Origin: Zoogloeaceae bacterium G21618-S1
Lineage (GTDB): Bacteria; Pseudomonadota; Gammaproteobacteria; Burkholderiales; Rhodocyclaceae
NCBI GenBank assembly: GCA_027214125.1
Contig: JAPWHF010000005.1
Span: 248,951-312,950, forward strand
Direction: 5' to 3'
DNA: 64,000 nt
The notes under the pieces were generated by a model that made no database searches, was not told the origin of the DNA, and saw nothing but the letters and a program-made list of their open reading frames with translations. Shown in pieces: positions 59,880 to 64,000 of this stretch. Numbering within the stretch: the first letter of the stretch is position 1; each line of letters opens with the position of its first letter. Both the position numbers and the translations under genes were made by a program.

Positions 59880-59894
59880 TGGCCCGCTTGTTGC
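59880..59894 (+). promoter_or_regulatory. Sigma-54-type promoter of the Rieske/PQQ operon
   Basis: TGGCCCGCTTGTTGC matches TGGCACG-N4-TTGC with one mismatch, and the GG (59881-59882) and GC (59893-59894) dinucleotides are exactly 10 bp apart. The Rieske start lies 45 bp further on, with TAAGGAG between. Confidence 0.8.
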
Positions 59895-59939
59895 GAAGAG
59901 GGGAAAAAGAAAAATTTCAACCACGCTAAGGAGACATGA

Positions 59940-60548
59940 ATGAAGTGTGACCACCCAGATGAGCCGGCCGGTTGCGGTGCCGCGTGCAACCAAGCCAGAC
60001 GGACCGCACTGAAGTTGTGCGCAGGGGCGGTGATCGGACTGGTGGCCACCGCCAAGGACAATGCATACGCCAACGACGCGGCCAGTAGCCGGCCCCAGGC
60101 CGGAGACCGCCTGGTCCTGGCGGATGGGGAGTCAGGCGCCAACGCCCCGCTGGAGCTCACCAGCATCGCTGTGGGCGACAAGCCAGTGCCCGCCTATCCG
60201 TTTGACCCCGCCACCGGCACCTTGCGCGACGGCTCCCGGCTCAACCGCGTTCTGCTGGTCCGTCTGGACCCCACCGGGTTGGATGAGCGCACCCGCGCCC
60301 GGTCCGCCGACGGCGTTGTCGCCTATTCGAGTGTATGCACCCATCAAGGATGTGACATCACCGAGTACAACCCGGACGAGAACGTCCTGTTCTGCTTTTG
60401 TCATTTTTCGAAATTTCAGCCGTCACACGGCGGGGAAGTCGTCGGGGGGCCCGCGCCCCGCAATCTGCCGATGTTGCCGCTGCGTCTTGAAGGCGGCCAG
60501 CTGGTCGTTGCCGACACCTTCACCTCCCGGCCCGGCGCCACCATGTAA
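59940..60548 (+). CDS. Tat-exported Rieske 2Fe-2S protein
   Basis: I start at ATG 59940, with TAAGGAG 6 bp upstream. The 202-residue protein has a twin-arginine signal (NQARRTALKLCAGAVIGLVA, residues 17-36) and a bc1-type Rieske fold: CTHQGC (Cys133, His135, Cys138) and CFCHFS (Cys152, Cys154, His155). Ligands are Cys133, His135, Cys152 and His155, with Cys138 and Cys154 as the disulfide. No cytochrome b or c1 is encoded nearby, so it is not simply a bc1 subunit. It is the first gene behind the sigma-54 promoter, followed by a PQQ dehydrogenase, and presumably acts in its electron transfer. Confidence 0.85.
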   Translation: MKCDHPDEPAGCGAACNQARRTALKLCAGAVIGLVATAKDNAYANDAASSRPQAGDRLVLADGESGANAPLELTSIAVGDKPVPAYPFDPATGTLRDGSRLNRVLLVRLDPTGLDERTRARSADGVVAYSSVCTHQGCDITEYNPDENVLFCFCHFSKFQPSHGGEVVGGPAPRNLPMLPLRLEGGQLVVADTFTSRPGATM

Positions 60549-60603
60549 CAACGCCGCCGCGTTTTTTTCTCAACCCACCAAGAAGAACCGCAGGAGACAT
60601 TGC

Positions 60604-62325
60604 ATGCACAAGAACCTGAAACCTCTCGTCGCCGCCCTGGTGCTGGCACCCACGGTTGCACTGGCGGCACTGCCGCCCTACGCTGCCGTGACCGACAAAC
60701 GCCTCGACAAGCCCGAGCCGCACAACTGGTTGTCCTACCGGGGCAACTACGCGGGCTGGGGCTACAGCCCATTGAGTCAGATCACCCCGGAAAACGTGGG
60801 CAAGCTGACGCTGGCCTGGTCGTATTCGACCGGGATGACCGAGGGGCACCAGTCACCGCCCATCGTCAACAACGGCTACATGTACATCACGACACCGAAC
60901 AACCAGGTGATCGCGATGGAAGCGGCCACCGGCAAGGAACTATGGCGCTACAAGAAGTCCATCCCCGAGGAACTGCAGCAGCTGCACCCGACCAACCGCG
61001 GCGTCGCGCTGTATGGCAATCGTGTCTATCTGGCCACCACCGATGCCAACCTGGTGGCGCTGGACGCGACCACCGGCAAGGAGTTGTGGCGCACCCAGGT
61101 GGCCGACTGGCGCAAGGGCTATTACATGACCCTGGCGCCGCTGGCCGCCAAGGGCAAGATCATGGTCGGCTCCTCCGGCGGTGAATACGGCATCCGCGGT
61201 TTTGTCGCGGCCTTTGACGCCGAGACCGGCAAGGAAGCGTGGCGCACCTATACCATCCCCGCGCCGGGCGAACCGGGCGGCGAAACCTGGCCGGGCGACA
61301 CCTACAAGCGAGGCGGCGGCTCGGTGTGGATCACCGGCACCTACGACGCCGATAGCAATATCGCTTACTGGGGCGTCGGCAACGCCGGGCCTTGGATGCC
61401 GGACACCCGCGCTGGCGACAACCTCTACGCCAACTCGACCATCGCCCTCGACGTCGACACCGGCAAGCTCAAGGGCTACCACCAGTATCACCATAACGAC
61501 GCCTGGGACTGGGATGAGGTATCCGCGCCGTTATTGATCGATATGCCGTACAAGGGCCGCAACATCAAATCCCTGGTGCACGCGGGGCGCAACGGTTACC
61601 TGTGGCTGCTCGACCGAGAAAAGGGCGGCGAGATCGGCTTCGTCGACGCCTGGCCTTTCGTTGAACAGAACGTGTTCAAGAGCATCGACCCGAAAACCGG
61701 CCGGCCGACCTATGACCAGGACCGCGTGCCCGGCACTGGCAAAACGGTGAATTTCTGTCCGTCGCTGTGGGGTGGCAAGGACTGGCCGCCCGAGGCCTAC
61801 AACCCGAAGACCGGCCTGCTCTACATCCCGGCCAACAACCACCTGTGCTCCGAACTCACCGGCGAACCGACCAAGTATCAGGAAGGCCAGCTCTACATCG
61901 GCGTCGCGCTGCAGAACATTCTCACCAACGTGCGCATCGGCGAGAAAGCCAAAACATCCGTGGGCGAAGTGCAGGCCTGGGACATGAAGACCGGCAAGCA
62001 GGTATGGACCCACACCTATCCCGAGATGAACTGGGGCCCGCTGCTGACCACCGGCGGCAACCTGCTCTTCGGCGGCGGTACCAACGACCGTGAGTTCCAC
62101 GCCTTTGACGCCTCCACCGGCAAATTGCTGTGGAAATTCCCGGCACCGTCCGGCGTCACCGGCGTGCCGTCGAGTTTCGAGGTCGATGGCGAGCAATACA
62201 TCGCCGTTCAGGCCGGCTGGGGCGTAGATGCCCAGCGCATGCAGGGCGCATTCGATGCCGTGCTGCCCCACAAGACCGTCGTCCCCCAGGGCGGCGTGCT
62301 GATGGTGTTCAAGCTCTCCCACTAA
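60604..62325 (+). CDS. PQQ-dependent alcohol dehydrogenase (predicted lanthanide type)
   Basis: The 573-residue protein has a signal peptide (about residues 1-22) and an eight-bladed quinoprotein propeller of the methanol/ethanol family. Active-site residues are seen as Glu194 (SSGGEYGIRG), Asn260 (WGVGNAGPW) and catalytic Asp302 in NDAWDWDEV. Asp304, two residues on, is the extra lanthanide ligand of XoxF/ExaF-type enzymes; Ca2+ enzymes have Ala, Ser or Thr there. The vicinal Cys-Cys of most members is absent: LQQLHPTNRG lies in its place. There is no fused cytochrome domain. It should oxidise a primary or secondary alcohol in the periplasm. Substrate unknown. Confidence 0.9.
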   Translation: MHKNLKPLVAALVLAPTVALAALPPYAAVTDKRLDKPEPHNWLSYRGNYAGWGYSPLSQITPENVGKLTLAWSYSTGMTEGHQSPPIVNNGYMYITTPNNQVIAMEAATGKELWRYKKSIPEELQQLHPTNRGVALYGNRVYLATTDANLVALDATTGKELWRTQVADWRKGYYMTLAPLAAKGKIMVGSSGGEYGIRGFVAAFDAETGKEAWRTYTIPAPGEPGGETWPGDTYKRGGGSVWITGTYDADSNIAYWGVGNAGPWMPDTRAGDNLYANSTIALDVDTGKLKGYHQYHHNDAWDWDEVSAPLLIDMPYKGRNIKSLVHAGRNGYLWLLDREKGGEIGFVDAWPFVEQNVFKSIDPKTGRPTYDQDRVPGTGKTVNFCPSLWGGKDWPPEAYNPKTGLLYIPANNHLCSELTGEPTKYQEGQLYIGVALQNILTNVRIGEKAKTSVGEVQAWDMKTGKQVWTHTYPEMNWGPLLTTGGNLLFGGGTNDREFHAFDASTGKLLWKFPAPSGVTGVPSSFEVDGEQYIAVQAGWGVDAQRMQGAFDAVLPHKTVVPQGGVLMVFKLSH

Positions 62326-62353
62326 CCGCGCGCTGCACTTCGTAGCACCCACC

Positions 62354-62373
62354 GATCCGCCGAAGGGCGGATC
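62354..62373. repeat. Short hairpin after the PQQ dehydrogenase gene
   Basis: GATCCGCC (62354-62361) pairs with GGCGGATC (62366-62373) across a 4-base loop. It has no T run and may stabilise the upstream mRNA. Confidence 0.5.
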
Positions 62374-62408
62374 GCTGGATCGCTGTCGCCAAAAATCCGA
62401 ACAAGACA

Positions 62409-63269
62409 ATGGAAAACATCATGACTACACACTCATCACACATGCGCCACCTGCTGGTCGGCAGCGCCTTGATTCTGTCCGGCCTGTCGGGTGTCACCCA
62501 GGCACAGACCACGTTCGACGTGATCGGCCCGCACGAATACGAGCTGCCGGTTGGCTTCGACCCGTTCAACGTCTTTGTGCAATACGCCTATGTTCAACGC
62601 AACAACCGGACATTCAACACCGACGGCGATCGCGTCAAAGGCTCCGGCAGCACCGCCATCGTGGGTCTGTCGAAGTACGTTCGCTTCTGGACCCCGGAAT
62701 CGAACCCGAACATCGGTCTCGCCTACGAGGTCATCGTCCCCGAAATCAGCGTGCGCGATCACCACGCAAATACGCAGGCCAGCGGTCTCGGCGACCCGCT
62801 GACCGGCTTCGCCATCTGGTACAAGCCCACGCCCAACAGCACGCTCGGCTTCCAGTCCTTCATCCAGATTCCTGCCGGCAGCTCGGATGTCAGCGACACC
62901 AACTGGAAGAACCTCTCCAGCGTGCTGTGGGACGTTCGCTTCACGGATCAGCTCGGCTGGACGGGCGACGCCGGTTTTGTGTTCCAGGGCGAGAAGACAA
63001 ACGGCACAAGGCCGGGGACGTCCTTCCACACCAACCATCGCCTGGGCTATCGCGTGAGTGATCTGGTCGAGCCCTTCGTGGCGATGGACTACGAGCGTAC
63101 GGCCAAGACCTCGACCGTGGCCGGCAGCCATGTGCTCGACGCTGGCGTGGGCCTGATGCTGCATACCTTCGACAACCAGTCCATCACCGTGCGCTATTCC
63201 AAGAGCGTCAGCGGTGAGAACCATGCCGCAAACAACAGCTTCAACCTCAAGTACGCCTACGTCTGGTAA
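62409..63269 (+). CDS. Outer-membrane protein of the MetA-pathway (phenol degradation) type
   Basis: The 286-residue protein has a signal peptide (MRHLLVGSALILSGLSGVTQ is its core; starts at 62409, 62421 and 62442 are all possible) and an antiparallel beta-barrel. The last residues (KYAYVW) end in an aromatic, as outer-membrane barrels do. The segment FVQYAYVQRNNRTFNTDGDR and GLGDPLTGFAIWYKPT fit the phenol MetA-pathway/SphA-like family, proposed channels for hydrophobic substrates. Its place behind the PQQ enzyme suggests that it admits the alcohol substrate. No riboswitch or promoter is seen in the 83-bp gap. Confidence 0.8.
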   Translation: MENIMTTHSSHMRHLLVGSALILSGLSGVTQAQTTFDVIGPHEYELPVGFDPFNVFVQYAYVQRNNRTFNTDGDRVKGSGSTAIVGLSKYVRFWTPESNPNIGLAYEVIVPEISVRDHHANTQASGLGDPLTGFAIWYKPTPNSTLGFQSFIQIPAGSSDVSDTNWKNLSSVLWDVRFTDQLGWTGDAGFVFQGEKTNGTRPGTSFHTNHRLGYRVSDLVEPFVAMDYERTAKTSTVAGSHVLDAGVGLMLHTFDNQSITVRYSKSVSGENHAANNSFNLKYAYVW

Positions 63270-63322
63270 GCGCGCAGGTCGGCCCTGGCCGGCCTGACAT
63301 CCAGACCACCAAGGAGACAACC

Positions 63323-63790
63323 ATGAAATTCCTTCACGCCCTTGCATTGAGCATTGCCCTGCTGGTCGCACTCTGGGTCTACCTGAGCGTCGGCAATCCG
63401 GAACTGCGCTTCACTCCCTGGATCGGCTTCGTCGCCTGGGCCGCCTACTTCGCCGCCGGTGGCGGCGCAGACGGGGTCCGCAAGTCGATCGCCGCCGGGC
63501 TGGCCGGCGCGCTGCTGACCGCCTTCACGCTGTTCGGCGTCCAGGCGCTCGGGGGCAGTCTGGTCGTCCTGATCGGCCTGGTCGCGATCCTGGCCTTTGT
63601 CCTGGTCGCGATGGCCGATATCCCCCTGCTGGCCTACACGCCCGCCGCCTTCCTCGGCGCCGCGTGCTTCTTCGGGTCGGGCGCCAAGCTGGATGTCAGC
63701 GCGGTGTTCGTCGGCCTGACCTGGTGCCTCGGCGTGCTGTTCGGCCTGATGTCCGAACAGATCGGAAAACGCCTCGCTCGTCCCGCCTGA
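63323..63790 (+). CDS. DUF1097 membrane protein
   Basis: The 155-residue protein has five hydrophobic segments and matches DUF1097. LALSIALLVALWVYLSVGNP is the first; FTPWIGFVAWAAYFAAGGG and LAYTPAAFLGAACFFGSGAK follow. In other genomes the family occurs with alcohol or amino-alcohol catabolic genes, but its role is unknown. Here it sits between the outer-membrane protein and an aldehyde dehydrogenase. AAGGAG precedes the ATG at 6 bp. It would be the inner-membrane component of the pathway, possibly a transporter (inference). Confidence 0.8.
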   Translation: MKFLHALALSIALLVALWVYLSVGNPELRFTPWIGFVAWAAYFAAGGGADGVRKSIAAGLAGALLTAFTLFGVQALGGSLVVLIGLVAILAFVLVAMADIPLLAYTPAAFLGAACFFGSGAKLDVSAVFVGLTWCLGVLFGLMSEQIGKRLARPA

Positions 63791-63865
63791 ACGCCCCCCA
63801 TCGTCGGCTCAAGCTGAAAAGCCCAGTCGAATAACCAACCTACGCGTATTCCTTTGGAGAAAAAC

Positions 63866-64000
63866 ATGACAAGGAAACTGGAAAACTTCATCAATGGCCG
63901 CTTTGTCAGCGGCAACGGACTTGAGCACATCGAGGTCCGCAACCCCGCCAACGGCGACGTTCTCGCGCACTTTCCGCTCTCAAACGAGGCGGTGACCGAA
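63866..64000 (+). CDS. Aldehyde dehydrogenase, 3' end outside the window
   Basis: Only the first 45 residues are present. They read MTRKLENFINGRFVSGNGLE and EVRNPANGDVLAHFP, the N-terminal strand and NP-x-NG-x-V pattern of NAD(P)-dependent aldehyde dehydrogenases. A GGAG ribosome binding site lies 8 bp upstream. It belongs to the same operon as the PQQ enzyme and should oxidise the aldehyde it makes. The catalytic Cys and Glu are beyond the window. Confidence 0.85.
   Translation, partial: MTRKLENFINGRFVSGNGLEHIEVRNPANGDVLAHFPLSNEAVTE

Follow-up and report, generated by a model that had tools for sequence, protein, structure and literature searches.

A Rieske iron–sulphur protein as the probable electron acceptor of a clade of quinoprotein alcohol dehydrogenases

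c-type cytochromes are regarded as the electron acceptors of type I quinoprotein alcohol dehydrogenases, which carry pyrroloquinoline quinone (PQQ), whereas the function of the vicinal Cys-Cys ring in these enzymes is unsettled. A Rieske protein that serves a periplasmic dehydrogenase has a precedent in AioB of the arsenite oxidase AioAB. Among the closest described systems, the ethanol dehydrogenases ExaA/PedE and PedH carry the ring and pair with cytochrome c550 (ExaB/PedF), and MxaF/XoxF enzymes pair with cytochrome cL (MxaG/XoxG). Here we analyse a 64,000-nucleotide stretch of DNA (hereafter the window) from Zoogloeaceae bacterium G21618-S1 (contig JAPWHF010000005.1, positions 248,951 to 312,950), at the end of which a gene for a Rieske [2Fe-2S] protein is followed by one for a PQQ alcohol dehydrogenase (PQQ-ADH). 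We propose that this Rieske protein is probably the dedicated electron acceptor of the PQQ-ADH in place of a cytochrome c, a reading that is supported by gene order, conservation, reciprocal pairing, the dehydrogenase clade, ring absence, cytochrome scarcity and predicted folds.

The PQQ-ADH (60604–62325, forward strand; 573 aa) matches TIGR03075 with 585 bits (cut-off 480), and its start is placed at 60604 rather than at 60061, where a longer open frame begins. The frame contains no CxxCH motif, which marks the enzyme as a quinoprotein without a haem c domain. Its closest fold is PedH (6ZCV), and 1FLG shares the type I fold. The enzyme has this fold and the catalytic Asp in common with ExaA/PedE and PedH, but its operon has a Rieske gene where those systems have cytochrome c550, and it lacks the ring. 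MxaF/XoxF belong to the same superfamily; the present operon differs from theirs in having no neighbouring CxxCH gene, and in our tree the comparison runs via control enzymes only. In the available extracts on the ped cluster, an aldehyde dehydrogenase and a regulator are clustered, as they are here.

The association of the two genes was examined in 103 test loci picked by Rieske similarity, many of them near relatives (i.e. the window's own locus L009, the seven plasmid loci L023–L029, L031, L037, L039, L041, the series L042–L121, which is the best 80 of 130 loci, and L130–L140). Thermus locus L030, which has no PQQ-ADH, and seven duplicates (L032–L036, L038 and L040) were omitted. In 96 of the 103 loci, the dehydrogenase gene is the same-strand neighbour of the Rieske gene, with the Rieske gene first in 89 and the dehydrogenase gene first in 7. 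By contrast, the 50 control loci, which encode 54 PQQ-ADHs from outside the clade, have no Rieske open reading frame (ORF) in the ∼5 kb viewed on each side where the contig allows; these controls are 49 regions (about every second of 100 rows, with clade members skipped) plus L127, and several are shortened by contig ends. The conserved neighbourhood for which the initial annotation had proposed a search is thus found. Among the unpaired Rieske loci, L072 and L088 both lie at contig ends, and the L088 genome has a clade enzyme on another contig; the genomes of L078, L081 and L114 carry another complete pair elsewhere.

Genome samples were also searched from both sides, with thresholds of E ≤ 1e-20 (300 genomes of the order) and 1e-25 (398 genomes of the phylum) for the Rieske protein and of E ≤ 1e-170 (300 order genomes and 396 phylum genomes) for the dehydrogenase clade. 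In the order sample each protein occurs in 11 of 300 genomes, and these are the identical 11; the genes are side by side in 10 of them, and G126 has each of the two at the end of a contig. In the phylum sample the Rieske protein is present in 12/398 and the clade dehydrogenase in 11/396, and the two lists differ by G669 alone, whose locus L140 carries the pair. No genome in either sample was found to have the clade enzyme without the Rieske protein. On plasmids, the nine closest dehydrogenases (46–72% identity) are in nine records with Rieske matches, and the next dehydrogenase has 42% identity; eight of these nine pairs were viewed, and the listed positions of the ninth (P. yeei NZ_CP044082) are adjacent. 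A Rieske match at 1e-5 is present in 42 plasmid records, 20 of which were listed. The Rieske and PQQ-ADH genes are a conserved, reciprocal two-gene unit. The two proteins also co-diverge over 47 loci (Mantel r 0.56, with none of 2000 permutations as high), a statistic that carries little weight because it is uncorrected for species relatedness.

In a 94-row tree, a branch with SH-aLRT 99 sets the 48 rows of Rieske-linked dehydrogenases apart from the other 46 as one clade. The tree comes from a quick search with no bootstrap, and its 48 Rieske-linked enzymes are those left at 85% identity; the Deinococcus enzyme is outermost, on a long branch. PQQ-ADH types 5 and 6a, reportedly set out in Keltjens 2014, may include this clade. 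The catalytic Asp is present in the window's enzyme and in 95 of 96 Rieske-linked members, with a gap in one. Two residues further on, the window's enzyme has the Asp typical of lanthanide enzymes (WDWD), and this position is Asp in 84 of the 96 members, Ala in 11 and a gap in 1; eight of the 11 Ala-type members are in the tree, where they group together in a single sub-branch, with Paracoccus and Alteromonas among them. The metal of the PQQ-ADH is probably a lanthanide.

A further feature of the clade concerns the vicinal Cys-Cys ring. Where relatives carry CCDxxNRG, the window's enzyme reads LHPTNRG, and in a pairwise alignment with PedH the Cys-Cys-Asp preceding NRG is replaced by Leu-(deletion)-His. 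The ring is missing in this enzyme and in 94 of the 95 Rieske-linked enzymes that cover the region (L095 is left out as a fragment without it), while it is present in 53 of the 54 controls. The available extracts of published work report the ring as essential for efficient electron transfer to cytochrome c550 (Mennenga 2009; PMC12997753). With slightly less confidence than for the single operon, we favour the wider reading that a whole PQQ-ADH clade, most of it lanthanide-type, swapped cytochrome c for a soluble Rieske acceptor and lost the disulfide ring, in alpha-, beta- and gammaproteobacteria, Rokubacteria, Acidobacteria and Deinococcus.

The initial annotation had seen no cytochrome c beside the PQQ-ADH and had proposed a look past the aldehyde dehydrogenase. 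None was found there either: no ORF of at least 70 aa in L009, a 20-kb region that extends 12 kb beyond the window end, contains a CxxCH motif. More generally, a same-strand CxxCH ORF lies within 3 kb of 7 of 79 Rieske-linked enzymes versus 22 of 42 controls, with truncated loci set aside (17 Rieske-linked and 12 control). This count over all ORFs was used in preference to a GC-based gene caller (5/79 versus 23/41), which missed AT-rich genomes. In the window's own genome, the other two PQQ-ADHs over the cut-off flank a CxxCH protein gene, and a fourth, lower-scoring PQQ-ADH (contig C11) has no clear CxxCH neighbour. An operon of Caballeronia (L207) has a like layout (i.e. sigma-54 activator, pqqA, PQQ-ADH, c-type cytochrome and aldehyde dehydrogenase), but with a cytochrome where the window's operon has the Rieske gene; its PQQ-ADH keeps the Cys-Cys ring, is 42% identical and falls outside the clade by sequence. 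In L026 (9067–12387) and L130, a large protein with two CxxCH motifs is encoded 3′ of the pair (FG-GAP-like annotation in L026), and this protein may be the next to accept electrons in the branch of these loci.

The Rieske gene (59940–60548, forward strand; 202 aa; PF00355, E = 2e-9) is the first gene of the operon and encodes a protein with a signal like those of the twin-arginine translocation (Tat) pathway, as the initial annotation had described. Within its motifs (CTHQGC...CFCHFSKF), CTHQGC and CFCH supply the four cluster ligands and the disulfide pair of cysteines known from Rieske proteins of the bc (high-potential) type, and all of these are invariant in a 17-row alignment. At the N-terminus, RR is followed by a short hydrophobic stretch and AYA, which would fit a Tat signal that is cleaved off to leave a soluble protein. 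By pattern scan only, the motif pattern is matched in 100 of the 103 loci; RR occurs in 97 of these 100 and precedes an AxA-like site in 76. In the three Rieske proteins outside the pattern (L131, L135 and L138), the first motif reads CAH or CVH. The residue at the serine position adjoining the cluster is S in 88, T in 11 and A in 1 of the 100 proteins, and Phe takes the place of the tyrosine in 92 of the 100. Going by studies of Rieske mutants, the Phe should give a somewhat lower Rieske potential.

We also compared the Rieske protein with solved structures and curated families. With its AlphaFold model (mean pLDDT 84.5), Foldseek gives the Thermus bc-complex Rieske protein 1NYK as the best solved fold (TM 0.73 by query length and 0.94 by target length, 39% identity), followed by an actinobacterial bc Rieske protein and then by AioB. 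The protein scores 52.3 bits against the arsenite oxidase small subunit family TIGR02694, under the cut-off of 95.65, and also scores under the actinobacterial QcrA cut-off. The partner of AioB in AioAB is AioA, a molybdenum enzyme, and a Pfam scan of six proteins from the operon region showed no such subunit. The window's genome is close to Denitromonas, and its Rieske protein is 87% identical to the one in D. ohlonensis (L042). The Rieske tree is poorly resolved and groups AioB with one member on a long branch, and therefore no Rieske origin is drawn from it. One scan gave no viral relative, and a viral link was dropped.

The initial annotation had suggested a role for the Rieske protein as the electron acceptor or as a helper of it, and co-occurrence, the clade, ring absence and cytochrome scarcity all argue for this suggestion. 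In the proposed mechanism, an alcohol would be oxidized to the aldehyde in the periplasm at PQQ and a metal, probably a lanthanide. The Rieske [2Fe-2S] protein, soluble and carried out by Tat in the folded state, would stand in for the usual c-type cytochrome (i.e. MxaG/XoxG/ExaB/PedF), and its cluster would reoxidize PQQH2 in two single-electron steps. The Rieske protein would then hand electrons onward to the respiratory chain, and the aldehyde would be oxidized by the AldA-type dehydrogenase encoded in the same operon. We infer the electron transfer from PQQ-ADH to the Rieske protein, as well as Rieske solubility, the metal, the substrate, the downstream acceptor and the regulation.

Several observations weigh against a dedicated Rieske acceptor. 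The Deinococcus member retains the Cys-Cys ring yet has the Rieske protein. Because all members share one ancestor, the loss of the ring and the pairing with the Rieske protein may each have come about a single time, and possibly together. In two Piscinibacter genomes (L112 and L115), the Rieske protein occurs without a clade-level enzyme: the best matches score 480 and 475 bits, while complete proteobacterial enzymes of the clade score >850 bits. Distant Rieske relatives on Thermus and Meiothermus plasmids, unlike the window's Rieske protein, stand without a PQQ-ADH. By itself, the lack of a cytochrome gene nearby says little because 20 of the 42 controls also have none within 3 kb, and CxxCH ORFs do occur near some Rieske loci (directly upstream in L094, and in L102, L103, L073, L133, L026 and L130). 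The acceptor could also be a cytochrome c encoded elsewhere.

This last point leads to the rival that we regard as the least improbable, although still unlikely, in which a cytochrome c from elsewhere takes the PQQ electrons and the Rieske protein is a second carrier that serves, for example, aldehyde oxidation. CxxCH protein genes are indeed present elsewhere in the genome and nearby in some loci, and seven loci have a molybdenum aldehyde-oxidase-like gene. However, the constant partner of the Rieske gene is the PQQ-ADH (within 7 kb in 73 of 80 related loci) and not an aldehyde dehydrogenase homologue >55% identical (36 of 80), and the ring tied to cytochrome c550 transfer is missing in 94 of 95 Rieske-linked enzymes. 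A slightly more doubtful explanation holds that the Rieske protein and a generic cytochrome c are interchangeable acceptors, used depending on conditions. It would suit the minority of loci with CxxCH proteins nearby and the ring of the Deinococcus member, but neither the order nor the phylum sample gave a clade enzyme in a genome without the Rieske protein.

Tight pairing would equally suit a maturation factor, and the Rieske protein might accordingly be a redox sensor, an assembly factor or a protective factor for the PQQ-ADH instead of an electron carrier. We give this explanation rather little credence: the invariant ligands and disulfide cysteines are as in a high-potential carrier, and the operon would be left without a visible acceptor. 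Finally, it is very improbable that the Rieske gene is a second copy of petA, the gene for the Rieske subunit of bc1, that strayed into an alcohol operon, a possibility that the initial annotation had raised itself. The genome does contain another Rieske gene with full petABC on another contig (L010), but the window's Rieske protein scores 36 bits against the PetA family TIGR01416, under the cut-off of 97.4, its nearest structures are those of Thermus and then of actinobacterial and AioB Rieske proteins, and its pairing with the PQQ-ADH is conserved in several phyla; the duplicate was therefore rejected. With these four explanations weighed, a Rieske protein dedicated to the PQQ-ADH is the reading we keep. 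An identity of the enzyme with Mdh2, a PQQ-ADH of Methyloversatilis, was rejected as well. Rieske operons are present in Methyloversatilis and Methylibium (L050 and L051), the former being the genus of Mdh2 itself; unlike the Rieske-linked enzyme, Mdh2 is of the ExaA/PedE type with its own cytochrome, Mdh2G, according to the extracts available of the two reports (PMC5023235, PMC6028718).

The remaining genes of the operon follow in the order Rieske, PQQ-ADH, 286-aa protein, DUF1097 protein and AldA-type aldehyde dehydrogenase, and the window end falls inside the operon on a 358-kb contig. The 286-aa protein (62409–63269, forward strand) belongs to no recognized family, has a signal-like N-terminus and is possibly an outer-membrane channel. 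The DUF1097 protein (63323–63790, forward strand) matches PF06496 with E = 5e-30. The aldehyde dehydrogenase gene begins near 63866 (63866–64000 within the window, forward strand), runs beyond the window end and is complete in the contig (479 aa; L009:7817–9256; NF007497, 727 bits, cut-off 500). Family matches bear out the operon content given by the initial annotation except for its 'outer-membrane channel-like' label, which is unproven because Pfam and NCBIfam scans gave no match to the 286-aa protein; the Azoarcus KH32C operon encodes a relative with 36% identity, which bears the annotation 'transporter'. Within 7 kb of the Rieske gene and on its strand, 19 of the 80 related loci encode a homologue of the 286-aa protein, and 19 likewise encode a DUF1097 protein.

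A sigma-54 GAF regulator gene lies past the window, after the aldehyde dehydrogenase gene (L009:9445–11373). A sigma-54-type (−24/−12) promoter-like site (TGGCCCGCTTGTTGCG, 59880–59895, forward strand) ends 44 bases 5′ of the Rieske start codon. Scored against the −24/−12 consensus, such a site upstream of the Rieske gene reaches at least 9 of 11 in 22 of the 23 activator-bearing loci (the window's own included), 20 of the 22 at a similar distance from the Rieske gene, and at least 10 of 11 in 15 of the 23, while shuffles gave 0.02. The operon is probably under the control of a sigma-54 activator. PQQ synthesis is likely present in the genome, in which two PqqE-family matches exceed the curated cut-off (C1:112351–113394 and C33:283160–284188); as a side observation, the two matches suggest two PQQ synthesis loci.

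The neighbours of the pair vary among related loci: the window's locus has the AldA-family aldehyde dehydrogenase, and others have molybdenum aldehyde-oxidase-like or thiamine pyrophosphate (TPP)/AMP-binding genes. A molybdenum aldehyde-oxidase-like gene is near the pair in L023, where it is directly downstream, and in L062, L084, L085, L097, L105 and L108. A TPP-binding enzyme gene is near the Rieske gene in 13 loci (i.e. L024, L037, L041, L056, L061, L081, L090, L101, L106, L113, L116, L117 and one more). On the Azoarcus plasmid (L024) it is accompanied by a GntR regulator and an AMP-binding enzyme, a possible substrate clue. In the two Piscinibacter loci (at ∼6.9–16 kb), the Rieske gene is beside genes resembling the glyoxylate carboligase pathway, which we take to be hyi, glxR, gcl and glycerate kinase; this hints at glycolate or ethylene glycol metabolism. 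A ∼15 kDa protein with a signal-like start is encoded after the Rieske gene in L025 (4177–4587), L026 (8586–9047), L027 (8498–8938) and L029 (8459–8905); these loci belong to the branch in which the PQQ-ADH gene comes first (Paracoccus and Alteromonas), and the protein is a possible third component.

The initial annotation knew of no described pathway with a Rieske partner, and we likewise found no description of the Rieske/PQQ-ADH pair in the open-access papers that we searched; the subscription papers Kalyuzhnaya 2008 and Keltjens 2014 could hold an earlier mention. The locus apparently represents a known enzyme superfamily with a different, undescribed electron partner. A natural clade that is ring-less and Rieske-paired makes the role of the Cys-Cys ring directly testable. 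If the proposed role of the Rieske protein is true, it would widen the range of partners known to serve alcohol oxidation in the periplasm, partly with lanthanide-type enzymes, and would provide an undescribed electron exit for quinoprotein dehydrogenases.

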